25,636 bases of DNA, from positions 1 to 25,636 of the IMG/VR virus record IMGVR_UViG_3300044960_000350; one strand, written 5' to 3'. The notes beneath the pieces were generated by a model. It was not told where the DNA came from. It did not search any database and saw only the letters and a list, made by a program, of their open reading frames with translations. This DNA is from a virus. The stretch's first letter is position 1. Every line of letters begins with the position of its first letter. Made by a program: the position numbers and the translations under genes. Below, piece after piece: positions 824 to 24,667 of this stretch.

Positions 824-1300
824 TCATCTCCGAACGCAATTTGCAACTTGTTCCGCGAGCCGGTCGTAAAGTCTGCTTGCCGCCTCCGTCACGAGTAATC
901 GCTCGGCACCTGGACCGATTTTATGCAAGACTTCGGGGTAGTAGCCGATCGTTTCGTAGTCAGCAAAGTCGTCGATGTCGCTGACCATTGCTATCACAGG
1001 TATGCCGCGCATCTGACTCGGGTTTGTCTCGATACCGAGGCCGAGCATCGGTATCTCGACCCATACGTGACCGACGATCTCGCCCGTGAAAGCGCGTCCA
1101 CGGCCAACAACAATGATTGCTTCGTAGCCGAGGCGTTCGACGGCACGCGCCGCAACGTGCGCGATCTCGGGACAACCCTTGAAGTGCTGCGGAACGGGGC
1201 ACGTGCGAATCACTTTGCTGAGGCAGCGTCCAAGGCGTTTTCGAAGCTTGTCGGCAATATCCGAACTGCTCGAAGTGCTACGTGGACGCCGCTTGGCCAT
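824..1300 (-). CDS. Putative transglutaminase-like cysteine protein
   Basis: A 158-residue protein with a basic, Ser-rich N-terminus. Residues 40-95 match the usual order of the transglutaminase-like fold: a Cys in FKGCPEIAHVAARAV (C43) at the start of a helix, a strand EAIIVVGR, a His in GHVWVEI (H78) and a polar residue in GIETNPSQ (E91/N93). This resembles Cys-His-Asp/Asn sites of transglutaminase-like peptidases, but the match is by eye and remote. It is the first gene of the minus-strand unit that continues into the two-helix membrane protein and the papain-fold peptidase. Start ATG 1300 has no strong ribosome site. An inactive or structural family member cannot be excluded. Confidence 0.6.
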   Translation of the reverse strand: MAKRRPRSTSSSSDIADKLRKRLGRCLSKVIRTCPVPQHFKGCPEIAHVAARAVERLGYEAIIVVGRGRAFTGEIVGHVWVEIPMLGLGIETNPSQMRGIPVIAMVSDIDDFADYETIGYYPEVLHKIGPGAERLLVTEAASRLYDRLAEQVANCVRR

Positions 1301-1361
1301 ATCTCAAATCTATCACCGCATCGAGATTTCAAAACCGTGAGGCGTACACTACAACTCCACT

Positions 1362-1664
1362 ATGGCCGAGATCGAGCGCCCGAGCGCTGACGTATTGATT
1401 TTGCATCTATCACCCTATCATAGCCTCGATCTGGTACGCATTCCGAGCGCGCGCAAGTACCGCATCGTCTTCGCTGCACGCTGGGGCGTGCAGCAACGCG
1501 CGTTCGTGGAAGTCAGCTACGAACAGGCGCGTGAAGTGGCGATGTTTTTAGGTGCCAGCGATGAAACGATCGCCGCGATCGGCGATCCTTCGCCACCTTT
1601 GTCGAACGAAGAGCCACTCTCCTTACCGCCCATTCCACCGCGAACGACGACTCGGGGGATCTAA
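1362..1664 (+). CDS. Hypothetical protein, 100 aa, upstream of glycosyltransferase
   Basis: A 100-residue protein of unknown family. Residues 1-70 look folded, with alternating strands (DVLILHLS, YRIVFAARW, AFVEVSY) and a helix (EQAREVAMFLGA). The last 30 residues are proline-rich and probably disordered. Its TAA overlaps the ATG of the glycosyltransferase by one base (TAATG), with a GGGGGA ribosome site inside this gene, so the two are translated together. It lies on the plus strand between two minus-strand structural blocks, which suggests a two-gene insertion. No function is proposed. Confidence 0.65.
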   Translation: MAEIERPSADVLILHLSPYHSLDLVRIPSARKYRIVFAARWGVQQRAFVEVSYEQAREVAMFLGASDETIAAIGDPSPPLSNEEPLSLPPIPPRTTTRGI

Positions 1665-2455
1665 TGGCATTGCCGTGTGCCGTCGGACTACTTGCGACAC
1701 GAAACCGCCCCGCGTTTGCACATCGTGCTGCGCACATGTTCTTTGCGCAGTGTTACGAAGGTCCTCGGAGACTGTACGTTTACGACGACGGCGAGTCGCC
1801 ATTCGAGCTTTGTGAAACGCTACGCGCGTATGACGTAACGGTAGTACGCCACGAAGCGATTTCTCTAGGAGAGAAGCGCAATCGGATGTTGAAGTATGCG
1901 ACGGCGCGCGATCCGGACGGCATCTTCTTCATGTGGGATGACGACGATTTCCACGGCCCGTTTCGGCTCGCACGGCAGATTGGAGCATTGCTGGAAACTC
2001 CAACCGCAGACGGCTGCCTATTCTGTCCCTATTTTTCGTACAACACCCGTACGGGTCAGCTCTTCCGGGCGCGTCAGGTCGAAATCAACGGTCTGAAGTT
2101 GCGCGTAGGCGCTGACGGGACACTCGCGCTTCGCAGACGTCTTTGGGAGCGTTTGCCGCTCGATGCGCGCCCAGAGCTAGCGGGCATCAACGAAGGATGG
2201 CGCTGGCTCGCAGAGCCGCACGATCGCGTGATCGCCGTCGATGCGCAGCTCGATTACGTCGTCGTCAGGCACGGCGGAAATGTGACGTGGCATGCACTTC
2301 CTGAAGAACCGGCCGACAGCCGTTTTTGGGAACGTATTACAGACGAGCGTGCGGCAGTCGTCGCGAAAATTCTCGCGGGGGCAGCCGCTACGGATTGTAG
2401 GTCATGGCCTGTCCAGGCCCAACCTCCGAGTGCGGATCCCAGAACAGTACGTTGA
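1664..2455 (+). CDS. GT2-like glycosyltransferase
   Basis: A 263-residue GT-A fold glycosyltransferase candidate. The N-terminus has the family 2 pattern: strand VGLLATRNRPAFAH, the nucleotide-sugar motif VYDDGES (about 39-45), ISLGEKRNRML (about 66-76) and the metal-binding DxD region MWDDDDF (90-96). A later EGWRW may hold the acceptor-activating acid. Such enzymes move a sugar from an NDP-sugar to an acceptor; in phages the acceptor can be DNA bases, capsid proteins or host surface sugars, and the sequence does not say which. The start is coupled to the preceding 100-aa gene. The last 22 codons overlap the 3' end of the convergent minus-strand gene by 68 bp, and this C-terminal part is less protein-like than the rest. 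Confidence 0.8.
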   Translation: MALPCAVGLLATRNRPAFAHRAAHMFFAQCYEGPRRLYVYDDGESPFELCETLRAYDVTVVRHEAISLGEKRNRMLKYATARDPDGIFFMWDDDDFHGPFRLARQIGALLETPTADGCLFCPYFSYNTRTGQLFRARQVEINGLKLRVGADGTLALRRRLWERLPLDARPELAGINEGWRWLAEPHDRVIAVDAQLDYVVVRHGGNVTWHALPEEPADSRFWERITDERAAVVAKILAGAAATDCRSWPVQAQPPSADPRTVR

Positions 2456-2753
2456 TTTCGGCGGCGAATGCCGTGGGATTGCTGAATAGCACGTGAACCG
2501 TTCCAGTCGTCGCGTTGAAAGTCGGTTCTCCGTGTGTGATGTTCGTCCACGCAGCTGTCGGGACGAGCGGAACGACTTGAACGCGTGATGGACTACCGAA
2601 TCCAGGTTCGCTCGGAGACATACCTGCGAAGCTTTTGTTGACTTGCGTGATGCCTGTGTCGACGTCGAGCGTCCCGGGCGGCCCGCCGTTGGTGCCAGCT
2701 GGAATTGTCACGCGCATTCGATTCCAGAGAAGATTCCCAGCTTTCCTCGACAT
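2388..2753 (-). CDS. Beta-rich virion-associated protein, paralog B
   Basis: A 121-residue protein clearly paralogous to the product of 3230-3616. Shared elements in order are MSxKAGxLLWNR, xTIPAG, DTGxxQVNKxF, MSxxEP, a strand ending VVP, WxNITHGEP, ATGTVxVxF and NVLFWDPHS near the C-terminus. The composition (beta strands, Gly, Pro, Thr, no helix, no signal) suits a small beta-sandwich structural protein such as a capsid decoration or spike component; that is inference. Paralog B is longer around residues 20-30 (GGPPGTLDV) and shorter near 50. The start is 9 nt after the stop of the membrane protein gene, with no clear ribosome site. Confidence 0.8.
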   Translation of the reverse strand: MSRKAGNLLWNRMRVTIPAGTNGGPPGTLDVDTGITQVNKSFAGMSPSEPGFGSPSRVQVVPLVPTAAWTNITHGEPTFNATTGTVHVLFSNPTAFAAEINVLFWDPHSEVGPGQAMTYNP

Positions 2754-2762
2754 GGCACAACG

Positions 2763-3221
2763 CTAGCGCAAAACGAAATTACGATCAACGTCAGGCGTAT
2801 ACCGGCGACGGCGTGTCCATCGCCCGAGACCGAAACCGATTCCCCCGAGCGCGAGAACAGCGGCGGCACCGATTGCCCACGGCGCCCACGGATACTTCGA
2901 GTACCAGATCGCAGCGTCGAGCAGCGGCACGACACGATGAAGTCCGACGCCGGGGACGCTCGGCACACTAGGCGCACTCGGCGCACTCGGCGCTTTCTTT
3001 GCGGCAATCGTACGCAGCGTCTCGATACGACGAACTACTTGCGGCAGCGCCGGATCCTCGACAACTTTGACAATCGTCGGCAGGTACGCCGCACCTTTCG
3101 TCAGGATCGCGCTAATTTGACTGGCGTAAGCCGGCGCCTTCTGGAAAATTGCAAGCAGATCTTCCGCCGATCCATTGAACTCGGATCCACGCCGGAAAGG
3201 TGCGGCTGACAGCGTTAGCAT
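2763..3221 (-). CDS. Single-helix membrane protein with Pro-Ser linker
   Basis: A 152-residue protein between the two beta-rich paralogs. Residues 15-75 are helical. Residues 77-90 form a PSAPSAPSVPSVP linker encoded by 9-bp repeats. A hydrophobic segment at about 114-134 (WAIGAAAVLALGGIGFGLG) is followed by a TRRRR cytoplasmic-type anchor and a short polar tail. The likely topology is a soluble N-terminal domain tethered to a membrane through a flexible linker. Start ATG 3221 lies 8 nt after the upstream gene; no ribosome site is obvious, so reinitiation is likely. No family is recognised. Its position suggests a virion membrane or vertex component. Confidence 0.7.
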   Translation of the reverse strand: MLTLSAAPFRRGSEFNGSAEDLLAIFQKAPAYASQISAILTKGAAYLPTIVKVVEDPALPQVVRRIETLRTIAAKKAPSAPSAPSVPSVPGVGLHRVVPLLDAAIWYSKYPWAPWAIGAAAVLALGGIGFGLGRWTRRRRYTPDVDRNFVLR

Positions 3222-3229
3222 CGAGGAAA

Positions 3230-3616
3230 CTACGCTGGTTGATGATACGTATTTGCCTGACCGGGACCGGGGATGCTGTGCGGATCCCAGAATAGAACGT
3301 TGACCGTCGTGGACGCACCCGAATTATTGAAGGTCACCTTGACGGTTCCTGTTGCGGGATCGACGAACGGTTCGCCGTGCGTGATGTTGGCCCAGGTGGA
3401 GATCGGTGACATCGGGACGACCATGATTCGCGAGGCCGGCAACGTTCCATCTGCCGGTCCCGGCGGGGCGACGCTGACACCGAGCGGCGGTTCGTCAAGC
3501 GACATGTTGTTGAATGCCTTGTTCACTTGCCGCAAGCCCGTGTCGATCGTAGTCAGGCCCGCCGGTAGTGTGATTCGCTGACGGTTCCAGAGGAGTGCGC
3601 CTGCTTTCGTGCTCAT
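3230..3616 (-). CDS. Beta-rich virion-associated protein, paralog A
   Basis: A 128-residue protein paralogous to the product of 2388-2753 along its whole length. It begins MSTKAGALLWNRQRITLPAG and ends with VNVLFWDPHSIPGPGQANTY. An AGGAG ribosome site lies about 10 nt upstream of ATG 3616. It has a Gly/Pro-rich insertion around residues 45-62 (GVSVAPPGPADGTLP) absent from paralog B. No transmembrane segment or signal peptide is visible. A small structural beta protein is the simplest reading. The duplication flanking a membrane protein gene argues that the two copies act in the same particle, perhaps at different symmetry positions. Confidence 0.82.
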   Translation of the reverse strand: MSTKAGALLWNRQRITLPAGLTTIDTGLRQVNKAFNNMSLDEPPLGVSVAPPGPADGTLPASRIMVVPMSPISTWANITHGEPFVDPATGTVKVTFNNSGASTTVNVLFWDPHSIPGPGQANTYHQPA

Positions 3617-3643
3617 GTCGAGATTGCTCCTTTTGGCGGGACG

Positions 3644-4090
3644 TTACCATTCTTCCCATGCCGGTTTCTTGGGTCTTCCACCAGCTTTGTAGTAGAGCCA
3701 GATCGCTAAGCCACTGACGGCCGCGCCCGTCAGCAGCGATCCACCCAGGATCAGTGCGCCCGCTACGAGCGGATGTCGTTGTCTGAGCCAATCGGTGACG
3801 TCTCCGAGTTGTTGACGGGGCGGAATCACGTGCTGTCCGCCATCGACAACGACGAAATCTTGTTTCGACTCGCTGTAATCGCAGACGGGACCACGCGCAG
3901 GATAACGTCGTCGGTACATGACCGGCGTCCCTCCGGGTCCATATACGGGCGTCGCGACGCGCGTCGGGCCGACAATGGCAGCGTGTGGCGCTAGCGGAGA
4001 ACCTGCGGGCGGAAACGCGACAGTAGGCTCTGCACCAAGACTTGCCAGCTGGTCGGAAGTGAGACCTTCGATCGTCATGACGTGCGGCAT
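3644..4090 (-). CDS. Single-helix membrane protein
   Basis: A 148-residue protein. ATG 4090 is chosen because AGGA lies 6-7 nt upstream and it leaves a 16-nt gap after the preceding gene; the longer frame to 4135 would overlap that gene. Residues 5-20 form a short helix-like module (TIEGLTSDQLASLGA). Residues 22-65 are Pro/Gly-rich, and one transmembrane helix occupies about 108-132, followed by a basic-aromatic C-terminus (KAGGRPKKPAWEEW). It is the second bitopic membrane protein of this cassette. No family is recognised. A virion membrane or lysis-related role is plausible only from context. Confidence 0.72.
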   Translation of the reverse strand: MPHVMTIEGLTSDQLASLGAEPTVAFPPAGSPLAPHAAIVGPTRVATPVYGPGGTPVMYRRRYPARGPVCDYSESKQDFVVVDGGQHVIPPRQQLGDVTDWLRQRHPLVAGALILGGSLLTGAAVSGLAIWLYYKAGGRPKKPAWEEW

Positions 4091-10129: not shown

Positions 10130-12118
10130 TCATCGAGCGGCTTTTTCAGCTAGAAACTTCCCGACGTCGGCCAGATCTTGCGAAAAGCCCTTGAAGGGCA
10201 AGCTCGCCAAGAACTGTCGACCGTAACGCTTGACCTTGATTCGTTGATCGAGCAACACGAACACGCCGTAGTCGTCGGCGCGTCGAATCAAACGACCGGC
10301 GCCTTGCGCGAGCGCGATGGCTGCTCGGGGCACGTAGAATTCCTCGTAGTAGGTATTCGGATGCTTGGTCTTCATCATGTCGACGAACGGATCGTCGAAG
10401 CTGTCGAAGGGCAACTTATCGATCACGAGGCACGAGAGTGACTCTCCGGCTACGTCGAGCCCAGTCCAAAAGCTGCGAGTCGCGAGCAGCACGCTATCGG
10501 TTTCTTGCCGAAACCGTTGCGCGAGTAGCTTGTTGGAGCCTTCACCTTGTACGAGCAAGGGGTAGCTGATCTTGTCTCGCAAGTAGTCTGCGACATAACG
10601 AAGACGCCGCCACGACGTGAAAAGTGCCAGCGTACGACCTTGCGAGTCATTGACGATCTGTACGAGCGCCTTCGCTATCGCAGCGTCGAACAGCGATTCG
10701 TTTTCTGACGAAGGGAGCGGGATGCCGAATGGGATGACGAACTTCGCCTGCTTTGCGTAGTCGAAAGGACTTGCCACGCGCGAAAGGCGCAGCTTGCTGG
10801 TCATTTCTGCGTTATCTAGGCCCAGTTCCCCGCGGATGAAATCGAATGAACCGCCTGCAGTCATGGTCGCGGAAATGCAGACGATGCTTTCATACTGCGA
10901 GAACACAGTCTGACGGAGTTGATCTCCGACGCGATACGGTGCCGCACACAACTTTACGGTCGCGCCCGTGACACGCGTCGCGTCTAACGGTTTGTCGATC
11001 CAGTATGCGGTCAGATCATCGCTTTGTTCGACGAACGCGACGAGGGCCGCTGCAACTTCCCGCGCGCGATCATGGATACGTTGGCGATTGGCGCATTCGC
11101 TGCACGATTCACCTTCGACGCAGCGGCCACAACCTCCTGCCACGATCGCTGCAACCTCGTCGAGAACTTCAACGAGGTCGTCGACATTCACGAAACCGGG
11201 ATCGGACAGTCGACCGCCACGCACGCCGAGCGCGTAGTCGGCAATTTTCTCGAACGTCGGCGCCGCAGTTTCGCGCAGCCTCCGCGCCAACTCACGTTCT
11301 CCGAAACGATCGCTCAGCGTCGAAGCCATCCGGCGCAAGGTGCCCTCGCTGATTTCTGTACCGAAGCACCGTCGCGCGATCGTCGCTGCTTCGTGCGCTT
11401 CGTCGAGAATGACCATGCCAAATTTCCGCCAGAAGGCGGCGTCACCGTGGAGGAGCTTGGCGAATAGGAGATCGTAGTTGGCGATCACGACGTGGGCTCC
11501 GTCAGCGTTTTCGAGGGCTTTCTCGGCGAAGCACGTCGAATAGTGCGCACAAGCGCGACGATCACAATCGTCGCCTGTGATCGAAACGAGTCGCCAGGTC
11601 TTGTCGCTGACGTGAGGCGCGTCGTTTCGGTCACCCGAACACGTCGGATCGCGCACCCATGTACGAATCGCATTGCCCTCTGACACGAGATCGTACGGCC
11701 AGGAGATTCCGCCGGAATCGTACATTGCCAGTTCGCGCCGACAAACGTAATTGGCGCGACCTTTGAGAACCGCAAACTTGAAATTCTTGAAAGGAGTACC
11801 TTGTAAGGCTTGCTGTAACGTCGGCAGATCTTTCTCGGCGAGTTGATCTTGCAATGCCTTGTTGGCTGTGACGATCAACGACGGGCGCCCCGTCATGATC
11901 GCGCGCGCGATGGCGGGAATGCCGTAGGCGAAACTTTTCCCGCATCCAGTCGGACCTTCAGCAAGCAAAATGCCCCCACGCGTTGCCGTTTCCCAGATAT
12001 CGCGCACGAGTTGGACTTGACCATCCCGTCGGCGATAGTTCGGAATCGTATGCGCGAGCGCGCCTGCGTCACCGAAAAACTCCTCGATCAACTTCCCGTA
12101 CGTGGTTGCGTGGTCCAT
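10130..12118 (-). CDS. DinG/XPD-like Fe-S DNA helicase
   Basis: A 662-residue superfamily 2 helicase of the XPD/DinG group, which unwinds DNA 5' to 3'. Motif I is GPTGCGKS (55-62) and the Walker B box is VILDEAHEAA with DEAH (239-242). Motif VI is QGAGRLIRR near residue 610, preceded by SFWTGLDVAGES and LVIDKLPF. Four cysteines in DinG-like order (C126 in RANYVC, C185, C190, C196 in DDCDRRACAHYSTC) mark the 4Fe-4S domain between motifs Ia and II. A second Cys cluster (CGRCVEGESCSEC) about residue 335-347 is extra. ATG 12118 has GAGGGA 4-5 nt upstream. It follows the polymerase gene by 20 nt and probably serves replication fork or R-loop processing. Confidence 0.93.
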   Translation of the reverse strand: MDHATTYGKLIEEFFGDAGALAHTIPNYRRRDGQVQLVRDIWETATRGGILLAEGPTGCGKSFAYGIPAIARAIMTGRPSLIVTANKALQDQLAEKDLPTLQQALQGTPFKNFKFAVLKGRANYVCRRELAMYDSGGISWPYDLVSEGNAIRTWVRDPTCSGDRNDAPHVSDKTWRLVSITGDDCDRRACAHYSTCFAEKALENADGAHVVIANYDLLFAKLLHGDAAFWRKFGMVILDEAHEAATIARRCFGTEISEGTLRRMASTLSDRFGERELARRLRETAAPTFEKIADYALGVRGGRLSDPGFVNVDDLVEVLDEVAAIVAGGCGRCVEGESCSECANRQRIHDRAREVAAALVAFVEQSDDLTAYWIDKPLDATRVTGATVKLCAAPYRVGDQLRQTVFSQYESIVCISATMTAGGSFDFIRGELGLDNAEMTSKLRLSRVASPFDYAKQAKFVIPFGIPLPSSENESLFDAAIAKALVQIVNDSQGRTLALFTSWRRLRYVADYLRDKISYPLLVQGEGSNKLLAQRFRQETDSVLLATRSFWTGLDVAGESLSCLVIDKLPFDSFDDPFVDMMKTKHPNTYYEEFYVPRAAIALAQGAGRLIRRADDYGVFVLLDQRIKVKRYGRQFLASLPFKGFSQDLADVGKFLAEKAAR

Positions 12119-12138: not shown

Positions 12139-14730
12139 TCAGTTCACTTCGGCCCACGATTTTCCGGCCCGCGCATCGACCGGGAAATTGATCGTTATCC
12201 CTTCGTAAGTGACTTCACGTGTAAACGACTGAACGACCAAGCTCTTGACGAGATCCTGATCGTCTTCATCACATTCGAATACGACGGCGTCATGGATCTG
12301 CAAAATCGGGAACGCGTTCGGCGGAAGTCGCGGCATGATGTCCATGAGGCCGAGGTTGATGATATCTGCACCTGTCGACTGCACGGGAAAGTTCACGACT
12401 TCCGACAAATCGAATTGCCCGAGAGGGAAACAGCGACGGCGTTCCAAGATCGCACTTCGGACTTCACCTAGCTCGGCGGCCTGCCGCATCAATCGTTGGT
12501 GCCACGCGGTGACTGCAGGCATCTTCGTTTTCATCGTCGCGACCATCTTGCCGATCATCGTGATGGTCACGTTCGGGTAGTCGCGGACGACGGCTTTCCA
12601 CAACGTATCGACAGCGCCGCCGTAGAATGCGCCATACTCCGGCCGCTTGATCATGTCGCGGAGGACTTTGCGTTCGTCGACGGGACGCCGATCGAAGTCA
12701 GGCCAGACGATGCGCGCAAATTCGCTGTGGATGTCCTTATCGTTATGGAAGATGTCGAGCAGGAATGGATCGCCCGACAACAGCGCGATGATACGTGCTT
12801 CGAGCTGCTTGGCATCGAATGCCACGAGTGCGCGGCCGGGTGGCGCCACCACTTGGCTGCGTAGGTTCGGCCGACCTTTTTTCTTGTCGGCCTTGGGCCA
12901 ATTTTGGCTTCCTGGCGCTTCCGATCCCCAACGGCCTGTGATCTTGTGAACACTCCAACGCGGGTGGACGCGGTCGTTCTCGTCGGCGAAGCCGTAGACG
13001 ATCTTACCGTTGCCGTAGTCGCGATCGAACATCCGCTCGACGAACGTGTTGAGCAACTTCGCGTTCTCGCGATAGGTCAAGAGGGCGCGAACTTCTGGGT
13101 GATGTATGAAACTCTCCAGGACGTCTTTCTTCGTCGAGATGCGCCCCGAAGCGGTCTGCAATGAAAGTGGAACGCCGCGTGCCTTCAAGAACGCGACGAC
13201 GTGATCGCTCGCGTCGATCTTAAATTGAAACGGCTTGCGATCTATCTCGGTGAGGCGTCGATAGATACGTTCGTCGAGATCCAGCGGATCGTGCTTACGC
13301 ATGCGTCGCGCTTGCTCGAACGCGAGACGCCCTTTGAAACACTCGAAGATTACCGGATCGGCGATGTGTGCGTGCAGCTCATCACGTGCTTTATCGATCG
13401 TCGCGCGAAAGCCGCGTCGTAACTGCTCGTTGACTTCACGATCAATCGGAACTCCCTTGACGTGCATGAGCGCAGCGGCGAGCGCCATGGCACGGTCGAC
13501 TTTGTACGTCTTCTCGGCATTCGATTTTTTGACTACGATCTGAAGCGGCGATTCGATGCGCGCAGTCGCTAGCGCGTCACGTGCATTGTAGGGCAACAAT
13601 TCATCGAGCGTGCCTTGGCCATGCCGATATTCACTTTTCCACGGCGTCGTCGCGTAGAACTGCGTTGTCACGCGCTGGAGGTCATGCGCGAGTCCGGGAA
13701 ACGCGCTATGGTGCAGAAGCAACGTGTCGTGTAACGGTCCGTCAACCGCAAAGCCGTGACGATGCAGTACGGGAACGTCGTAAATCCCGTTATGGAACGT
13801 CTTCGTAATGGTCGGATCAGCCAATACGTCGGCGATCGACTGCTTGGCGCCGGGCGTCAATATCGACCATGCAACACTGATAGCCCGTTTGACGGTCGCG
13901 AGACCGATGGCGCTAAGTTTCGCGTGAGCAGCTTGAAGCGCCGAGTGCCGTTTCGGATCGTCGACGTATGTCTCGGTATCACAAGCCATGGCGCGTGAGG
14001 CGCGAATGTCGCGGACGATTTCTGTGACGAGCTGCTCGGCGCGTGCCGGATCCGTCGTCTCGTATTCGATATCGTCCGTGAACCTGATGTCTACGCCACG
14101 CGCAAGCAGGTTGACTTTCTGTAGATCGTAGACGAGCGCCCAAAAGCCTAGATCACTCGTGTGGGCGCCGCCGCCGCCGCTGCTCGTACCGCCTCGCAAG
14201 ATCGCCGCTGGATGCGTCGTCGGGATGACGGCGCGCAGTCCCGTACCGTCGAAGTCGACTTCGTAGAGTGCACCGGCCATTTGCGTGATCGAGAATTTCT
14301 CGCCTGCGAAGCCTTGCGCGGCGATGGCACCGAGAGCTGCGACAGGTCGTCTCGGGAACTCCGCCAGTTCGCGTCGCAGACGCGGCGCGCAGCAGCGCCG
14401 CGCTTCTTTCTTTTGCGCGTCAGTCGCGCTAGCTGGAGGCGGGCAAAGAGTCGCGTTCGTGACCCACAGAGACTCTCGCCGTACGCGAATGCGCGCGAGA
14501 GCCTCGTTTACCATTCGACCGGATGCTCCACAGAATGGTTGGCCTCGGACGACTTCGGTGTGACCTGGACCTTCGCCGACGATAATCCAAATCGGCCGCT
14601 CCGAACCTTCAGCAAAAACAGGCTGATTCGGACGCCCCATACGACTGAAGGGACACTCGGCGCAATTCGCGCCGAGAGCCGAACCGCGAACGACGAGTGG
14701 CGGTTCGTAGGATTCTTCGGCTTCGGTCAT
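12139..14730 (-). CDS. Uracil-DNA glycosylase (family 4-like) fused to family A DNA polymerase
   Basis: An 863-residue protein starting at ATG 14730, which overlaps the preceding stop as ATGA; a longer frame to 14898 covers the neighbouring gene. Residues 15-210 are family 4-like UDG: Fe-S cysteines C23, C26, C96 and C113 or C114, motif GEGPGHTE (52-59), GQPFCGASG (63-71) and HPAAILRG (173-180). Residues 245-395 are a DEDDy 3'-5' exonuclease: DTE 251-253, HNGIYD 313-318, YNARD 381-385. Residues 400-863 are PolA: motif A FDAKQLEARII (D639, gate E644), motif B with K695 and Y699, motif C QIHDAV (D814). Tyr at the O-helix position is as in T7 polymerase; motif C has Ala where Glu is usual. There is no 5' nuclease. 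It should be the replicative polymerase, perhaps uracil-sensing. Confidence 0.93.
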   Translation of the reverse strand: MTEAEESYEPPLVVRGSALGANCAECPFSRMGRPNQPVFAEGSERPIWIIVGEGPGHTEVVRGQPFCGASGRMVNEALARIRVRRESLWVTNATLCPPPASATDAQKKEARRCCAPRLRRELAEFPRRPVAALGAIAAQGFAGEKFSITQMAGALYEVDFDGTGLRAVIPTTHPAAILRGGTSSGGGGAHTSDLGFWALVYDLQKVNLLARGVDIRFTDDIEYETTDPARAEQLVTEIVRDIRASRAMACDTETYVDDPKRHSALQAAHAKLSAIGLATVKRAISVAWSILTPGAKQSIADVLADPTITKTFHNGIYDVPVLHRHGFAVDGPLHDTLLLHHSAFPGLAHDLQRVTTQFYATTPWKSEYRHGQGTLDELLPYNARDALATARIESPLQIVVKKSNAEKTYKVDRAMALAAALMHVKGVPIDREVNEQLRRGFRATIDKARDELHAHIADPVIFECFKGRLAFEQARRMRKHDPLDLDERIYRRLTEIDRKPFQFKIDASDHVVAFLKARGVPLSLQTASGRISTKKDVLESFIHHPEVRALLTYRENAKLLNTFVERMFDRDYGNGKIVYGFADENDRVHPRWSVHKITGRWGSEAPGSQNWPKADKKKGRPNLRSQVVAPPGRALVAFDAKQLEARIIALLSGDPFLLDIFHNDKDIHSEFARIVWPDFDRRPVDERKVLRDMIKRPEYGAFYGGAVDTLWKAVVRDYPNVTITMIGKMVATMKTKMPAVTAWHQRLMRQAAELGEVRSAILERRRCFPLGQFDLSEVVNFPVQSTGADIINLGLMDIMPRLPPNAFPILQIHDAVVFECDEDDQDLVKSLVVQSFTREVTYEGITINFPVDARAGKSWAEVN

Positions 14731-14927
14731 TCGCAATTTTGAAAAGCCAGAACGATAGCCAGACTCACCGCTAGAATGACGATGAGCGATATCGCCCAGA
14801 TCAACAAACTCTCCCCAAACGAGAACCGGCTGACGCGCGCGTGGTACGCCGAACAACGCAACTGCATACCGATGATCGGCGTGCCGCAGTCGACGCAAGT
14901 GGAAGTCTTCCTAGCTGGTAGCGTCAT
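14727..14927 (-). CDS. Zinc-ribbon membrane protein, 66 aa
   Basis: A 66-residue protein with an N-terminal zinc ribbon (CVDCGTPIIGMQLRC, ending with Ser-Ala-Tyr-His) and one C-terminal transmembrane helix (LLIWAISLIVILAVSLAIVL). The second ribbon half is CxxYH rather than CxxCH, so the fourth ligand may be His. Its TGA is overlapped by the ATG of the polymerase gene, so it leads polymerase translation. A membrane anchor next to the polymerase could recruit replication to the membrane, which is speculative. Confidence 0.75.
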   Translation of the reverse strand: MTLPARKTSTCVDCGTPIIGMQLRCSAYHARVSRFSFGESLLIWAISLIVILAVSLAIVLAFQNCE

Positions 14928-15160: not shown

Positions 15161-15354
15161 TGCGCATCAATTGGCCTCGAAAGCCGTGGATCGTTGATCC
15201 AGCGTGCAAATGATCCGCAACGTGCGCAATAGGCTCGTCCGTGTTCCCATAGATGCGGCTCCCACTCGTGTTGACAGTTCGCTGCAGGTGCTTCGAACTT
15301 GAGCCCGCGACCGGGAACGTTTAGCTCGACGGCTTCGATAATCATCTCGATCAT
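15157..15354 (-). CDS. Putative zinc-binding small protein, 65 aa
   Basis: A 65-residue protein with CQHEWEPHLWEHGRAYCARC in its C-terminal half, giving a Cys/His...CxxC zinc-finger-like module. The N-terminus is strand-rich (IIEAVELNVPGRGLKFE). Both ends overlap neighbours by ATGA (15351-15354 and 15157-15160), so it sits inside a tightly coupled operon. No family is assigned. Confidence 0.65.
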   Translation of the reverse strand: MIEMIIEAVELNVPGRGLKFEAPAANCQHEWEPHLWEHGRAYCARCGSFARWINDPRLSRPIDAQ

Positions 15355-15770
15355 GCGGCGCGCCTCGCTGCTACGACTCGGAACGCACTCGACACGATAC
15401 GCTGAAAATCAGTTGTCCGTGTCTCGTCGAAAGTCTCGTAGGTCAGGAGTCCTGGCAGCGGCGGTCGCGTCAAGTCGATCCTCGGTCGATCGAGTTGGCC
15501 GAACAGGTCCCACTCCAAGATCATACCGCGCGAAAACTCGCCGCCGACTGCGACAGCGCCGTCGCAACATCGTGCGCATACCAGCGCGTCGCGCAGGCCG
15601 CGTTCGCGCTCGATCATCACTTCCGCGTACGGGAGCCACGGGGCGGCAATGACAATGTCAGGGAGAAGATCGGTCAGTGCTCGGATCCAAAGTTTCGCCG
15701 ACAATACGTTCATGGAACGCGTTGCGCCGATCCCTGCGGGGTGCATCAGAAAGATGACAGGTAGATCCAT
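15351..15770 (-). CDS. Nucleoside 2-deoxyribosyltransferase-like protein (DUF4406-like), copy 1
   Basis: A 139-residue Rossmann-like protein. AAGGAG 6 nt before ATG 15770 fixes the start. Recognisable features are VIFLMHPAGIG (strand plus phosphate loop), AKLWIRALTDLLPDIVIAAPWLPYAEV, GLRDALVCARCCDGAVAVGG and SRGMILEWD, where the Glu corresponds to the position used as nucleophile in true deoxyribosyltransferases. These enzymes cleave or exchange N-glycosidic bonds of nucleosides; the DUF4406 branch is not biochemically defined as far as I know. A second, different copy lies at 24272-24667. It sits among small genes upstream of the polymerase, so a role in nucleotide salvage, pool control or NAD/nucleotide signals is possible. 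Confidence 0.75.
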   Translation of the reverse strand: MDLPVIFLMHPAGIGATRSMNVLSAKLWIRALTDLLPDIVIAAPWLPYAEVMIERERGLRDALVCARCCDGAVAVGGEFSRGMILEWDLFGQLDRPRIDLTRPPLPGLLTYETFDETRTTDFQRIVSSAFRVVAARRAA

Positions 15771-16203: not shown

Positions 16204-16764
16204 TTAGCTGCGCGTGGCGGGTCGCCCATTGCCGGCGGGAGGTGCCGGCCGCCGGGGCGCGCTCTGCCCCTGTCCCGCTGGTGTAGATGCTGCAGAGGTT
16301 GCCGCGGGCGTGGCGGAGCCGTTGGCGCCTTCATAGAGACGTTCACCGATCCACTTCGTGACCCCGCGCTTGGTGGGCTGACCCGTCCTGGAGTCGATGT
16401 CGTCGATTTCGTCGGTGACGACGTCCGCCGTGAATCGCGCACCGATCATAGCTTCACGCATGAATCCGCCGGAAGCATCGAGTTGAATGGCCGCAGCCTC
16501 GACGATCGCTTTCATGCGCCGACGCGCGAACTCGTCATCGGAGATGACGTAGGAGCAAACCATCGTACGTCCCTTCATGGGACCTTCCGAGATCACCTGT
16601 GCAGTGACACGCAAGGTCCGGTTACCCTTGCGGCTCTGATCGAACTTCGCTTCCCGGATTTCGAAGTCGTACGTGCCCGGATCGATCCGACTGGAGCGGC
16701 CGTCGTGCGGCGTCAAGTTCGGATCGCTCATGTTCATGTTGATGTAATCGACGAATTCAGCCAT
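16204..16764 (-). CDS. Single-stranded DNA-binding-like protein (DUF669-like)
   Basis: A 186-residue protein. Residues 25-130 form an OB-like pattern: IDPGTYDFEIREAKFDQ, strand TLRVTAQVISEGPMKGRTM (the 'GPxxGR' seen in DUF669-type phage SSBs), then a helix FARRRMKAIVEAA and strand GARFTADVVTDEID. The C-terminal 40 residues are low-complexity Ala/Pro/Ser/Gly with a basic end instead of the acidic tip of bacterial SSB. It lies 40 nt downstream of the Sak4-like gene, a pairing common in phage recombination modules. Start ATG 16764 has a purine-rich ribosome site (AAGAGAGAG). Role: coat ssDNA during replication and annealing, inferred from fold and context. Confidence 0.75.
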   Translation of the reverse strand: MAEFVDYINMNMSDPNLTPHDGRSSRIDPGTYDFEIREAKFDQSRKGNRTLRVTAQVISEGPMKGRTMVCSYVISDDEFARRRMKAIVEAAAIQLDASGGFMREAMIGARFTADVVTDEIDDIDSRTGQPTKRGVTKWIGERLYEGANGSATPAATSAASTPAGQGQSAPRRPAPPAGNGRPATRS

Positions 16765-16804: not shown

Positions 16805-17656
16805 CTACTTGGATGCGGCTCGTACTGATGCAGCAGGTTGCGACGGACGAGGTTTGTTCTTGGCCTCGCCATTGGATGCATCTACGTTCGGGGCAAAGCC
16901 CGGCGCGATCCCGAGGGCCTCTGCGAGTGTCCGATACGTACAGTCGGCGACGAACACCTCTTGATTGCCTTCGATGACTTGGATGTATCCGAGCGGGTCG
17001 GGCAGGCGCCCCTCATCGCGACCACCCGCCTGATAGTTTTGGAATTTCCGTGTACGAATCTCGAACTGCAGCGGCTGGTTCGGTTGCGGCTGAAAGCTGC
17101 GGTGATAGAACACGTAATCGCAACCCGCAGCGAACTTAGCAGCGTTCTGACCGGCCAACATGGGGCCACCGATCGGCGTGTCTTCGCCGGGAGGCTTCTC
17201 CAGTGCAAGCCAGACGACGTTGCAGCCGAGCAGGTGAATCTGTTCGCGCAGATTCTTCAAATGCTGCCCGAGCTTTTGATACAGCTGTCGGCCGTCGGCA
17301 CGGTTGCCGGCGGCGGCGTCGAGCGTATTGAAGAAAAGATCGGCGTAGAACGTGAGGGAGTCGACAACGATCGTGTGAATCTCACCGCGTTTGACGAGCG
17401 GCTCGGCGTCGTGAACCGCTTGCATCATGTCGGCCGCCCTCTCGATGGCCCACACGGTAGGCGCACGATCGATTTCGAATAGTACGCTGCGATCCATGTT
17501 CGACAGCGTCGTCCATCCCGATTCCGTTGCGTCAGCAAGGAACAGCGGACGGGGCCATGATCCGGCGAATCGCGTCTTTCCCGCACGGGACATGCCATAG
17601 GACAGCGCCGTGATGCGCGTGATCTTGCCGGGCTTACTGACGTCGATGACTTTCAT
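16805..17656 (-). CDS. Sak4-like RecA-fold recombination ATPase
   Basis: A 283-residue RecA-type ATPase. Walker A is GMSRAGKT (21-28), following the strand ITRITALSY, and Walker B is HTIVVDS (94-100). A Gln/Asn-rich switch region (RSFQPQPNQPLQFEIRTRKF) follows near 205-224. The C-terminal 40 residues are a Lys/Pro/Ala-rich tail. Phage Sak4 proteins promote single-strand annealing and usually need an SSB, which is encoded next door. The start overlaps the nuclease stop by ATGA (17653-17656). Another close possibility is a generic phage 'AAA/nucleotide-binding protein' annotation for the same family. Together with the Fe-S nuclease and SSB-like gene it forms a complete recombination module. Confidence 0.88.
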   Translation of the reverse strand: MKVIDVSKPGKITRITALSYGMSRAGKTRFAGSWPRPLFLADATESGWTTLSNMDRSVLFEIDRAPTVWAIERAADMMQAVHDAEPLVKRGEIHTIVVDSLTFYADLFFNTLDAAAGNRADGRQLYQKLGQHLKNLREQIHLLGCNVVWLALEKPPGEDTPIGGPMLAGQNAAKFAAGCDYVFYHRSFQPQPNQPLQFEIRTRKFQNYQAGGRDEGRLPDPLGYIQVIEGNQEVFVADCTYRTLAEALGIAPGFAPNVDASNGEAKNKPRPSQPAASVRAASK

Positions 17657-18717
17657 GCGTCGCTCCCTTCTTCTACGTTGTTTGCTTCGTCGCTCGGAGC
17701 GTGCGATGCGCCACTGCCGGTCGACTCTTCACTCGAAGCGGCGACGGCTGGCGCCGCTGGCGTCCATTCGCGTTTTCGGATCGGCACGAGCTTTTGATTC
17801 TCGGCGCAGTGATCGAAGAAACTGCAAAGGCCGTACTTCGTGGCGCAATTCGCACGGGCCTTTGGCCATACGCCCGTGGCAGCGTACATTTGCTGCAGCG
17901 CAGACCACATCTTGAGGTCCTCCATGTGCTGCTGTACGTGCCAGCGCTGTGCTGGCACGATCGTACGATGGAACTGTGGGATTTTCTGTTTCCCGACGAT
18001 GTTGACGATCGTGCCGCGCAGTTTGCCGTACTTTCGATCGAGCTTGGCGCGCTTCCAAATCATGATCTGACCCAAGATCTCGCCGTCGTTTCGCCAACCG
18101 TCGAGCACGTCGGCCGTGAAGCGTGCACAGGTCTTATGTTCGACGATGTACACGCCCGGCATGATGCCCGGCTGTGCCGCATGGACGCGCGCGATCAAGT
18201 CAAACCGACACGAATTGCCGTCTGCATCTTGCGCCCATAACTCGACTGCTAGCGGATCGAGATAGTCGTTCTGATGCCGATCCGCGTAGGCTTCGTACAG
18301 GCGAAACGCCTCGTTGATCGCGCCCGCGTCGACGTCATGCGCGATCAGCATGTCACGCGCGACGAACGGTGTGAGCTGCAGGTTCTCGTCTCGCATCCAC
18401 ATGTAGTGCAAGGCGAGGAACGTGTGAAAGGCGGATCCTACAGTGAGCGCCTTCGACGCGACGCTGCGTTGACCGTCCAGATACGTGAGTTTGTAGAGGT
18501 ACGGACAGCGTTGAAACGTCGAGTGGCTCGACCAACCACGACCGGACGCGCCGCCAAGTCGTTCCATCTTGAAGTGCGCGAAGATCTCCGTGATGACTTC
18601 ATCGAAGGGGCGCACGCCTGGATTCGGTTCGAGCACGACGCGATCACCGCCTGCGATTGGCGGCGGAACGATCATGTTGGGTTCCCGCGAGGTCTCGTCG
18701 TTGTCATCGTTGTTCAT
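17653..18717 (-). CDS. PD-(D/E)XK nuclease, Cas4/RecB-like with Fe-S cluster
   Basis: A 354-residue nuclease. WSSHSTFQRCPYLYKL (62-77) with C71 is the usual start of RecB/Cas4-like nucleases. Catalytic residues follow as H98 (GSAFHTF), D173 (CRFDLIARV), E193 and K195 (VEHKT) and Q217 (GQIMIWK). Three C-terminal cysteines C291, C298 and C304 (CATKYGLCSFFDHC) join C71 to hold a 4Fe-4S cluster, as in Cas4 and AddB. The last 40 residues are low complexity. The enzyme should process DNA ends or ssDNA to feed the Sak4-like annealase encoded immediately downstream. The start has GGTAAG upstream; the SNF2-like gene ends 29 nt before it. Confidence 0.9.
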   Translation of the reverse strand: MNNDDNDETSREPNMIVPPPIAGGDRVVLEPNPGVRPFDEVITEIFAHFKMERLGGASGRGWSSHSTFQRCPYLYKLTYLDGQRSVASKALTVGSAFHTFLALHYMWMRDENLQLTPFVARDMLIAHDVDAGAINEAFRLYEAYADRHQNDYLDPLAVELWAQDADGNSCRFDLIARVHAAQPGIMPGVYIVEHKTCARFTADVLDGWRNDGEILGQIMIWKRAKLDRKYGKLRGTIVNIVGKQKIPQFHRTIVPAQRWHVQQHMEDLKMWSALQQMYAATGVWPKARANCATKYGLCSFFDHCAENQKLVPIRKREWTPAAPAVAASSEESTGSGASHAPSDEANNVEEGSDA

Positions 18718-18746: not shown

Positions 18747-20510
18747 CTACGACATCGCCTCCCAATCGTGGTTCCACAACGTGCCGTGATAGTCGTGTTC
18801 GTCCTCGTCTTCTGGATAATCTGCGAGCACAGCGGCAGCGATGGCATCGAGGTCTTCCACTGACAGCGCGCCGCCGCCGATGCCAGTGAAGCCGCTTGCG
18901 ATGACGTCGATGGCACTCTCGGCCGCGGGAACTCCCAAGCGAAACGCGAGTTCACACTTGTTCTGAAGCGCTTCTAGAATCTTACGCTCTACATCGTGAT
19001 CGATGATCACGTAAGTCGCTGCGATGGGTTGTAGACCGTTGAATGGCCGCATTTCGGCCTGCGCGACCACCGCAGGTGTGTAGTCCAGCTCTGCAAACAC
19101 TTCCTGGCGTGCCGCAGACAGATCGATACCGACTTGGCCGACGGAAAGCGTGATGCAAAGCGGCGAACAAGGATGCGCACGCCATTGGTTGAAAATCGCC
19201 TCGCGAAGATCTACAGGTGTGGCACCCGAGACGACGAAGCCCGGATAGCCATCGCGCGCGAGTGCCGCTTCGATTTTCACGGCAACGTCGCGATGCCAGG
19301 TCCAGATGATCACGCGCTCGCCGCCGTCGAGCACGCGCTTGGCAGCGTCGATCGCGCCTTCGATCTTCAAATTTGCGAGGAGCCGTCGAAACCGCGCGGT
19401 CGCGCCGATCTGCGTCGAGCGGCGTGCGTGATCGCGAACGCGCTCCGCTTCCTTTTCGACGGCGAACGCTTGCTGTTCGGTAATCGGAACTACTTCCGTA
19501 GTACGCGAAATCGTCGGCAGTTGCGTAGCAATTTCGTGCCACGAGCGCCGAATCATGACCTCGCACATGCGCAACCGAAATTCTTCTTCATGCGAAGCAC
19601 TATCTGCGACGAAGCCGTGCGGCCCCAGGCGTCCACCTGCGTAGCGCTTCGCGTATTCGTAGAACTTTCCCCACGCGCCCGGACACAGTGATGCGAGCGT
19701 CGTGTACAGTCCTGCCGGTTTGTTCCAGATGGGCGTGCCGGTCGCACCGATGACGCGATTCGCCTGTGCTGCGAGATACATCGCGGCGACACTCCGACGC
19801 GACTTTCTATTCGACAGTAGATGGATCTCGTCAAACACGAGCGTACCGATGCGGCGATTTCCAAAGTTTTTCCAACCAGCAAGAATGTCGTAGTGCATGA
19901 ATACGATCTGCGCGTTCACGAGCACTTCCGCGCGGAAGTATTCACCTTCCAAGAGGTCGTATCCCAAATCGCGCTGCCGCTTCCGCTCGCGTTTTGTTTT
20001 CGGATCGACGTACGCGACGTGCTTGCCGGCGAGGACAAGCGGGCGAACGTCTGGCCAGCGGCGGCGAAACCAGCCCAGCCAAACCTCGCGAGTAGCCAAT
20101 GGCGCGACAACAACCAACGGACCGTCCGCTAACTCATGAGAGGCCACGCAGGTTGCGGTCTTGCCGGTCCGCATTTGAAATGCGAGGAGCGTGCCGCGGC
20201 GATCTCGAATGAACTCGCGACCTTCGTGTTGGTAATCTCGAAGTTTCCATCCGTTCGTGGATGTCTGAGCGTCGAACTGGTCGCGATCGAACGGCAACCG
20301 ATTGTTCAATAACGTCTCGATTTCTGGATGACTTTTCGCGAGCAGTGGCAGGTGCGATCGGTGCGCAACAGGACCCCAGCGACCGTCGAGAATAACAGTA
20401 GGCGCCGCCGCAATTTCTGGCAGCCATTCCGACGGAATCACATACCAATCCTGACGAGTCGGATGCGCGGCCAAAGCCGGGCGCGCCGACTGCATTGCAG
20501 CAGCTCTCAC
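18747..20510 (-). CDS. SNF2-like superfamily 2 helicase/ATPase
   Basis: A 587-residue ATPase, first gene of the minus-strand replication operon. GTG 20510 is preceded by AGGGG 6 nt away. Motifs: Q-motif region LRDYQHEGREFI (90-101), Walker A FQMRTGKTA (111-119), LVVVAPLA (132-139), DEIH (227-230), ATGTP (256-260), IIWTWHRDVAVKIEAAL (401-417), VGQVGIDLSAA (457-467) and motif VI QAEMRPFNGLQ (484-494). SNF2 proteins translocate on double-stranded DNA. Two departures stand out: motif I lacks the usual Gly in DxGxGKT (MRTGKT), and motif VI has Asn491 where the family has a conserved Arg. A fork-remodelling or recombination role is inferred from the operon. Confidence 0.88.
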   Translation of the reverse strand: MRAAAMQSARPALAAHPTRQDWYVIPSEWLPEIAAAPTVILDGRWGPVAHRSHLPLLAKSHPEIETLLNNRLPFDRDQFDAQTSTNGWKLRDYQHEGREFIRDRRGTLLAFQMRTGKTATCVASHELADGPLVVVAPLATREVWLGWFRRRWPDVRPLVLAGKHVAYVDPKTKRERKRQRDLGYDLLEGEYFRAEVLVNAQIVFMHYDILAGWKNFGNRRIGTLVFDEIHLLSNRKSRRSVAAMYLAAQANRVIGATGTPIWNKPAGLYTTLASLCPGAWGKFYEYAKRYAGGRLGPHGFVADSASHEEEFRLRMCEVMIRRSWHEIATQLPTISRTTEVVPITEQQAFAVEKEAERVRDHARRSTQIGATARFRRLLANLKIEGAIDAAKRVLDGGERVIIWTWHRDVAVKIEAALARDGYPGFVVSGATPVDLREAIFNQWRAHPCSPLCITLSVGQVGIDLSAARQEVFAELDYTPAVVAQAEMRPFNGLQPIAATYVIIDHDVERKILEALQNKCELAFRLGVPAAESAIDVIASGFTGIGGGALSVEDLDAIAAAVLADYPEDEDEHDYHGTLWNHDWEAMS

Positions 20511-23132: not shown

Positions 23133-24275
23133 ATGGTGACCGTACTCGCTCGATCGGTTGACAATCGAGAGATCGCGCAAACTGCGGTCGAATACGCGCG
23201 CCGCGGATGGCGCGTGATCCCGCTGCATTACGTGCGCGTACCGGGTGAACAACCCGAATGCAGTTGCTTTCGCCGTACTGCGTGCCACGGGGCCGGCAAG
23301 CATCCCCTGATCAAGAGCTGGCGTGTCGTCGCTAGCAACGATCCCGATTTGGTCTGTTGCTGGTGGCGCGCTAGACCCCTTGCCAATATCGGCATCGCGA
23401 TGGGCGGCCCGGCACGTCTGATTGCCATCGATATCGATGGAGAGGAAGGTCGAGCGAGCCTCGCGAAGATTGAGTCGGCATATGGCCCGTTGCCGCTGAC
23501 GCTTGCGCAGACGACTGGACGGCTGGATGGTGGCGAACACCGCTTGTTCACGCTGCCCGACAACTTCGACATCGATCGCATCAGGAATCGCGTGAAAATC
23601 GCACCCGGAATCGATGTTCGCGCTGAGGGCGGTTTGATCGTCGCTGCTCCAAGTCTGCATTCATCGGGCTCGCGCTATATGTGGCGCGATCCAGCTGCAC
23701 CGATTGCAGGCATGCCCAACTGGCTGATCGCGTTAGCGACGTCGCAGAAAGCTCGCCAGGTCATTTCGGAGAATGCGGCGCGCCCTACTGAAGAAGAGTT
23801 GCAGCGCGACGGCTATCCGCTAGCGAGACGTTATGCGCTCGCTCGCGAAAAACTCATTCACGCCGAACCGGCCATTCAAGGTCGCAACGGCTCTGGCGCT
23901 TGCTTGAGAGCGACGTGCTTGTTGATTCGCGGATATTGCCTTCCGCCTGAACACGCGTTCGAACTGCTCTGGCATGTCTACAATCTGATTTGCGTGCCAC
24001 CTTGGAGCGAATCGGAGTTGATGCACAAAATCGAAAGCGCCGAGTATGCCATTTCGGATGCGTCCTATCCGTGGCGCTTCATGATTCCTGCGGAAGATCC
24101 GTCCCCTCCTGGGCGCGTCGTCGACGCAATCAAGCGCGCAGCCGACCGAGAACTGAATGAAGCGGAACGTCTCGCATACGCGACGCCAGAAACCAATCCA
24201 ACACCTCTTGCGGGAATTGTCGAAGACAACCCCGCCCGCCGTCGTCCACACAAACGCAAAAAAGGTGCTGCATGA
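23133..24275 (+). CDS. Bifunctional DNA primase/polymerase (Prim-Pol)
   Basis: A 380-residue protein; AAGG lies 6-7 nt before ATG 23133. The N-terminal 200 residues match Prim-Pol (PF09250-like) enzymes: AVEYARRGWRVIPLH (18-32), a Cys-rich insertion (C43, C45, C51, H52), GKHPLIKSW, NIGIAMG (85-91), metal-binding AIDID (98-102), GGEHRLF (133-139, H136) and GIDVRAEGGLIVAAPS (159-174). Residues 230-320 are helical, as in PriCT-type primase tails, and the last 15 residues are highly basic (RRRPHKRKKGAA). It should make primers and perhaps extend them at the fork. It partners with the AAA+ ATPase encoded upstream. Its stop overlaps the next start by ATGA. Confidence 0.92.
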   Translation: MVTVLARSVDNREIAQTAVEYARRGWRVIPLHYVRVPGEQPECSCFRRTACHGAGKHPLIKSWRVVASNDPDLVCCWWRARPLANIGIAMGGPARLIAIDIDGEEGRASLAKIESAYGPLPLTLAQTTGRLDGGEHRLFTLPDNFDIDRIRNRVKIAPGIDVRAEGGLIVAAPSLHSSGSRYMWRDPAAPIAGMPNWLIALATSQKARQVISENAARPTEEELQRDGYPLARRYALAREKLIHAEPAIQGRNGSGACLRATCLLIRGYCLPPEHAFELLWHVYNLICVPPWSESELMHKIESAEYAISDASYPWRFMIPAEDPSPPGRVVDAIKRAADRELNEAERLAYATPETNPTPLAGIVEDNPARRRPHKRKKGAA

Positions 24276-24667
24276 AAGTCATCTACCTGGCTGCTCCACT
24301 AGGGGCAGCCACACGCGAAGGCATCGAAGCCAACAAGGCACGCGCACGACGCTGGATACGCTGGGTTTACGATCACTTCGACGATGTTGCGGTTGTCGCT
24401 GACTGGATCATCACCTGCGACGTCCTCGACGATTTCGATCCCGCACACCGTGCGCGCGGCCTGCGGATGAATGCAGCGATCATTCCACGTTGTGACGAGT
24501 TCTGGATGGTCGGCGGACGCATCTCGAACGGCATGCGCGGCGAACTGGAGATCGCCGTTGCGGCGCATCGATGGGTCCGCGATTTCACGGCATTAGGCGA
24601 AGAACCGCCGGTCGGCGTTCCGCCGGAATTCGCCGAAAACACTTGCAAGGACGGCGCTGACATGTAA
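24272..24667 (+). CDS. Nucleoside 2-deoxyribosyltransferase-like protein (DUF4406-like), copy 2
   Basis: A 131-residue protein ATGA-coupled to the primase gene. Motifs are MKVIYLAAPLGAATREGIEA (strand plus loop), ARRWIRWVYDHFDDVAVVADWI, HRARGLRMNAAIIPRCDEFW, MVGGRISNGMRGELEIA (with the Glu in the nucleophile region). The same motif order occurs in copy 1 (15351-15770), although overall identity is modest, so they are diverged paralogs or separate acquisitions. Substrate is unknown: free deoxynucleosides, NAD-like molecules or nucleotide signals are candidates. Placement within the replication operon suggests a link to DNA precursor supply. Confidence 0.78.
   Translation: MKVIYLAAPLGAATREGIEANKARARRWIRWVYDHFDDVAVVADWIITCDVLDDFDPAHRARGLRMNAAIIPRCDEFWMVGGRISNGMRGELEIAVAAHRWVRDFTALGEEPPVGVPPEFAENTCKDGADM

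Follow-up and report, generated by a model that had tools for sequence, protein, structure and literature searches.

Uracil in DNA can be damage, a substitute base, or a by-product of deaminase-based defenses. In poxviruses, the uracil-DNA glycosylase (UDG) D4 is a subunit of the polymerase and contributes to encircling the template; when dU occupied template position -7, the D4 active site contained an abasic site, and template uracil stalls the polymerase (PMC11142717). Fusion of a UDG to a family A polymerase (PolA) is also a known arrangement. It is represented by phage SPO1, by COG1573, whose name (Phage SPO1 DNA polymerase-related protein) derives from the SPO1-type fusion, and by the solved polymerase of the Thermus phage phiLo, which is identical to PDB 9QHS over 1142 residues. 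Our literature search found neither a paper on 9QHS nor a paper describing UDG domains in PolA. For UdgX and family-4 UDGs, roles of the equivalents of the Glu, Asn, His, and Arg residues discussed below have been established by structure and mutation (PMC10359453).

The window analyzed here is a stretch of 25,636 nucleotides, the whole 25.6-kb IMG/VR record IMGVR_UViG_3300044960_000350, from a virus of bacteria or archaea. It encodes a UDG-exonuclease-PolA fusion, and what is new is that the UDG fusion spans a large clade of phage PolA. The interpretation we favor, with confidence evenly balanced, is that the window encodes a phage replication polymerase with a working UDG in cis that would scan the template for uracil and help hold DNA.

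Anatomy of the fusion and its gene neighborhood

The fusion gene occupies positions 12139..14730 on the minus strand, beginning with an ATG at 14730 and ending with a stop codon at 12139. The plus strand of this interval is riddled with stops, and upstream of the ATG the frame stays open as far as a TTG at 14898. Equally long relatives with the same reading are found in IMG/VR contigs at 77-81% identity to the fusion protein, and because they exist, the frame can be neither a chance product nor a frameshift artifact. A preliminary description of the sequence had proposed a single 863-residue chain joining a family-4 UDG to an exonuclease and PolA; translation, Pfam, and NCBIfam confirm this anatomy. 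The UDG domain (residues ~20-180; 14191..14673, minus strand) matches Pfam PF03167 over residues 41-180 (E 3.7e-19), passing the cut-off with 69.6 against 24.3. The family-4 model TIGR00758 matches with E 8.9e-24, and its 84.1 bits do not reach the full-length cut-off of 125.3; Arch_udg (77.3 bits, cut-off 250) is likewise not reached, both cut-offs being tuned to free-standing UDG enzymes. The exonuclease domain (residues 231-397; 13540..14040, minus strand) is identified by conservation and by Pfam DNA_pol_A_exo1 (PF01612; E 8.2e-7), and the polymerase domain (residues 502-861; 12148..13227, minus strand) by PF00476 (E 1.2e-45).

An AlphaFold model built on a 28-sequence alignment has a mean pLDDT of 86.6 and a pTM of 0.82, and most of the chain is confident. 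In structural superposition, residues 217-863 match Klenow, Bst, and Pol theta with Z about 31-32; the matches listed for the model in a PDB fold search are polymerases, and 9QHS is not among the matches listed. The best solved UDG match to the N-terminus is the Thermus thermophilus enzyme 1UI0 (E 2e-24), and this region is confident in the full-chain model, whereas a single-sequence model of the region alone reaches a pLDDT of 34.

The marks of family-4 UDGs are present in the fusion: four 4Fe-4S cysteines, GE[AG]PG with a downstream Glu, the Asn, and HPxxxLR. On the minus strand, the Fe-S ligands Cys23 and Cys26 form a CxxC motif (14653..14664), followed by motif A (14554..14577), in which GEGPG comprises residues 52-56 and the catalytic residues Glu53 and Glu59 align with 1UI0 and with E52 of UdgX. 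The uracil-contacting Asn92 (14455..14457) aligns with N91 of UdgX. Two further Fe-S ligands, Cys96 (14443..14445) and Cys114 (14389..14391, assigned by alignment), precede motif B (14194..14214), where HPAAIL spans residues 173-178 and HPAAILR residues 173-179, aligned with H178-R184 of UdgX. Thus, the Fe-S cysteines and both motifs named in the preliminary description were all found and align with 1UI0. Every residue checked (Cys23/26/96/114, Glu53, Glu59, Phe66, Asn92, His173, and Arg179) is canonical relative to 1UI0 and UdgX, and the uracil pocket is therefore intact by alignment.

The description of the chain as exonuclease-proficient is supported at the level of motifs, by the presence of the DEDDy residues D251/E253 (DxE), N314/D318 (NxxxD), and Y381/D385 (YxxxD). 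Catalytic residues are likewise present in polymerase motifs A, B, and C (D639, E644, K695, and D814). Two residues had been singled out as oddities, and both are as stated. Ala815, which follows the HD of motif C (12286..12288, minus strand), turns out to be the norm of the clade: among 131 distinct clade sequences, this position holds Ala in 51, Ser in 50, Gln in 11, and Glu in 5, so that Ala or Ser accounts for 101. Tyr699 of motif B (12634..12636, minus strand; E. coli position 762) is one of three common residues in the clade (Phe 76, Tyr 27, His 18). In phage PolA, Tyr at the equivalent position has been associated with higher nucleotide incorporation efficiency (PMC6302109). The window fusion could yield useful polymerase reagents.

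The gene lies in a replication module, all of whose members listed here are on the minus strand. A DinG-like DNA helicase (10130..12118; Pfam, phrog_2488) is found on one side. On the other are a possible single-strand DNA binding protein (16204..16764; weak, phrog_378 E 3e-4), a Sak4-like recombinase (16805..17656; phrog_124 E 6e-19), a PD-(D/E)XK exonuclease (17653..18717; PF12705, phrog_1218), and an SNF2 helicase (18747..20510; PF00176, phrog_62). A primase gene lies farther from the fusion gene than these helicase and recombinase neighbors. The term replicative, applied to the polymerase in the preliminary description, takes its support from this context of exonuclease, Sak4, SNF2 helicase, DinG-like helicase, and primase. 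Exonuclease and Sak4 genes also occur together with the fusion in a Methanomicrobiales virus and in a Manatee Spring phage. The window additionally encodes a DUF7768/nucleoside deoxyribosyltransferase-like protein (24272-24667, plus strand; E 2.7e-15) and, near the polymerase, a weak second DUF7768-like copy (15351-15770, minus strand).

Distribution of the fusion and selection on its UDG domain

A first scan of viral sequences recovered 14 loci and a second, alignment-based scan recovered 70. Because the 70-locus scan used UDG motif A as a pattern, it was redone with exonuclease and polymerase sequence only. Among the resulting 79 loci, the UDG lies in the polymerase frame in 67, in a separate frame of the same locus in 6, and is absent from 6. 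The preliminary description also stated that some other phage polymerases have UDG-like N-termini, which is correct: SPO1 and phiLo have them, as do about a hundred of the loci analyzed. Named carriers include SPO1-like phages, Brevundimonas phage StAshley, Thermus phage phiLo, Microcystis phage Mel-JY34, and Rctr197k, together with the Methanomicrobiales virus and the Manatee Spring phages. With so many viral loci carrying the same design, the idea that the fusion is unique was rejected. So was a bacterial origin, since all 81 UDG frames inspected in loci from bacterial and archaeal genomes are unfused. Fusions of this type are already known and widespread, and those in our sample are viral.

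Some viruses carry a two-gene form in which a UDG-exonuclease gene is followed by a polymerase gene, mostly without the Fe-S cysteines. These loci are L055, L058, L061-L067, L070, L071, L074-L076, and L085, as well as L022; the UDG-exonuclease frame is mostly ~310-410 amino acids long and the adjoining polymerase frame mostly ~440-565 amino acids. In over a dozen loci the UDG and exonuclease still share one chain but the polymerase has its own gene, which points to an alternative in which the UDG acts on the nascent strand and, with the 3'-5' exonuclease, removes newly incorporated dUMP as a uracil-proofreading unit. Against this, the UDG and exonuclease are neighbors in the sequence, and ordinary gene fission could account for a split behind the exonuclease; the Fe-S cysteines are gone from most split forms; and base excision would leave an abasic site that the exonuclease must still remove. 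We consider nascent-strand proofreading quite unlikely, although it gains something from the uracil-related gene content of the window clade. A search of 8 window-clade contigs (30-221 kb, possibly fragments) detected neither dUTPase (PF00692, PF08761) nor a thymidylate synthase of the classical type. This absence makes control of uracil by another route plausible; hosts supply dUTPase, which counts against such a reading.

Phages with altered pockets showed a suggestive excess of dUTPase (5/28 versus 1/33) that did not reach significance (Fisher p 0.085), and an association of dUTPase with pocket loss was not significant by independent pairs either. Thymine-replacement chemistry was rejected for the window clade, in which no thymidylate synthase homologue was found and a divergent ThyX occurs in 6 of 13 records. 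The divergent ThyX lies in long frames (423-481 amino acids; L244, L245, and L246), and the 6 window-clade genomes that carry it are without dUTPase.

The UDG domain of the window fusion is under purifying selection. Among 10 close sequences, its pocket and Fe-S residues are invariant, and its dN/dS (0.157) is close to that of the exonuclease (0.147), the domain evolving slightly faster than the polymerase (0.119). In an alignment of 28 sequences with identities as low as ~21%, the columns without variation comprise the UDG pocket, the Fe-S ligands (Cys23, Cys26, and Cys114 among them), Asn92, and the catalytic residues of the exonuclease and polymerase, an invariance that is partly built in by the use of the motif A pattern to gather the sample.

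Pocket changes among relatives and the role of the domain

In the scan based on exonuclease and polymerase sequence, pocket and cysteines are canonical in 32 of 74 relatives and altered in 42, so excision of uracil is not what the domain does throughout the clade. The canonical state requires 15 changes on a 129-row polymerase tree, of which at least seven are forced by supported branches. Persistence of the domain after its pocket has changed speaks for an additional role, either structural or in holding DNA. An alternative, which is possible though rather doubtful, is that the UDG serves chiefly to hold DNA or confer processivity, like poxvirus D4 in its catalysis-independent capacity, with a pocket that was inherited and is little used. 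The 42 altered relatives and the seven or more changes speak for it. So do the motif A and motif B prolines, which are kept in 69 and 71 of the 74 relatives and outlast Glu53 (46), Asn92 (48), and His173 (52); the persistence of the domain in SPO1 despite loss of the cysteines; and a weak gradient of similarity that extends to the highly processive T5-type polymerases. Against it, the window clade retains every pocket and Fe-S residue in 11 of 11 rows of the tree, a degree of conservation that would be superfluous in a pure scaffold. Within the window lineage, the pocket is under constraint.

Inteins tend to be retained where function constrains the sequence, and those within the UDG coincide exactly with active-site positions, which speaks for a working domain. 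They lie directly before Fe-S residue Cys96 in L011 (7875-11636), L012, L027, and L013 (6672-11840), and directly after the Phe66 equivalent in L039 (7326-11291); in the polymerase, they interrupt motif A in L014, L044, and L056 and motif B in L009. Upstream of the UDG and in the same open frame, L039 also has a match to a SLOG-type YAcAr domain. A lysine-rich insertion of ~110 residues is found in the UDG near window residues 141-148, observed directly in L013-L015 and inferred in L028 from its long UDG span.

The altered pockets fall into coherent types on the tree, for example Thr92/Asn173/Met66 and Lys53 without CxxC, which is unlike random decay. SPO1 DNA contains hydroxymethyluracil, and the SPO1 pocket is altered. 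These observations speak for a UDG that serves as a base reader tuned to the DNA chemistry of each phage, with uracil read as foreign or damaged in the window virus. Yet thymidylate synthase homologues, the sole modification marker tested, are absent from all 50 further contigs, and Brevundimonas phage StAshley, which has deazaguanine synthesis genes, possesses a canonical pocket. We regard such tuning as highly improbable. A broader version, which we also think unlikely, is a clade-wide read-ahead base sensor that has been retuned repeatedly and doubles as a clamp surviving in reduced form in T5-type polymerases; its pocket would serve for uracil in window-like lineages and for other or modified bases elsewhere. 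Whatever their cause, the repeated pocket changes provide a ready set for asking whether UDG domains read other bases.

We return to the favored interpretation, a polymerase with a working UDG in cis. The UDG domain would ride on DNA entering the polymerase and scan the template for uracil originating from cytosine deamination or dUTP incorporation. It would bind and excise template uracil, and synthesis would stop before the uracil is copied. The same UDG-DNA contact would also help to hold the polymerase on its template, and retention of the domain in related phages that have lost the pocket would follow from such a non-catalytic role. We infer, for the window fusion, the excision activity, the position of the UDG, the strand scanned, the stalling, and the contribution to processivity. 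A uracil-scanning role would fit the invariance of the pocket in the window lineage; a counterpoint is that the abasic sites resulting from an active, polymerase-borne UDG block the same polymerase. Exclusion of uracil-containing host DNA, which the preliminary description had also suggested, is without specific support. Deaminase defense as a selective pressure is not relied on here, since the study of AvcID (PMC10511110) saw no contribution of Ung or dUTPase to T5 protection.

Comparison with known systems

The window UDG shares its Fe-S cysteines, GE[AG]PG, catalytic Glu, Asn, and HPxxxLR with T. thermophilus UDGa (1UI0), which differs in being a free-standing repair enzyme rather than part of a polymerase. 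UdgX belongs to the same superfamily and has the Glu, Asn, His, and Arg in common; however, it contains a Gln in motif A and a KRRIH loop, whereas the window protein has Gly54 and no such loop. Both phiLo (9QHS) and SPO1-type PolA resemble the window protein in that UDG, exonuclease, and PolA follow in this order on one chain in a virus. Each is distant in sequence: the phiLo protein (1175 amino acids) shares the canonical pocket and cysteines with the window protein, whereas SPO1 has lost the cysteines and has changed pocket residues. T5-type PolA has an N-terminus that is weakly similar to the second half of the UDG domain (hhalign probability 70%), but without pocket or cysteines. The similarity fades across L247, L248, L250, and L252 (T5; 1098-3665) from E 2e-8 to 0.04, the latter being the value for T5 itself, and homology of the T5-type N-terminus is at most tentative.

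The closest functional parallel is the poxvirus E9-A20-D4 complex, in which a uracil-DNA glycosylase is likewise built into a viral replication polymerase and which is the model for the dual role proposed here. The poxvirus components are separate subunits joined via A20, with a family B polymerase and a UDG of another family, whereas those of the window protein are fused and the polymerase belongs to family A. We propose that the window protein would be a covalent version of the D4 arrangement that combines surveillance of template uracil with DNA holding. If its glycosylase is active on the polymerase, it would offer an accessible system for studying how a replisome handles uracil and would represent a naturally occurring equivalent, on a single chain, of the poxvirus holoenzyme.
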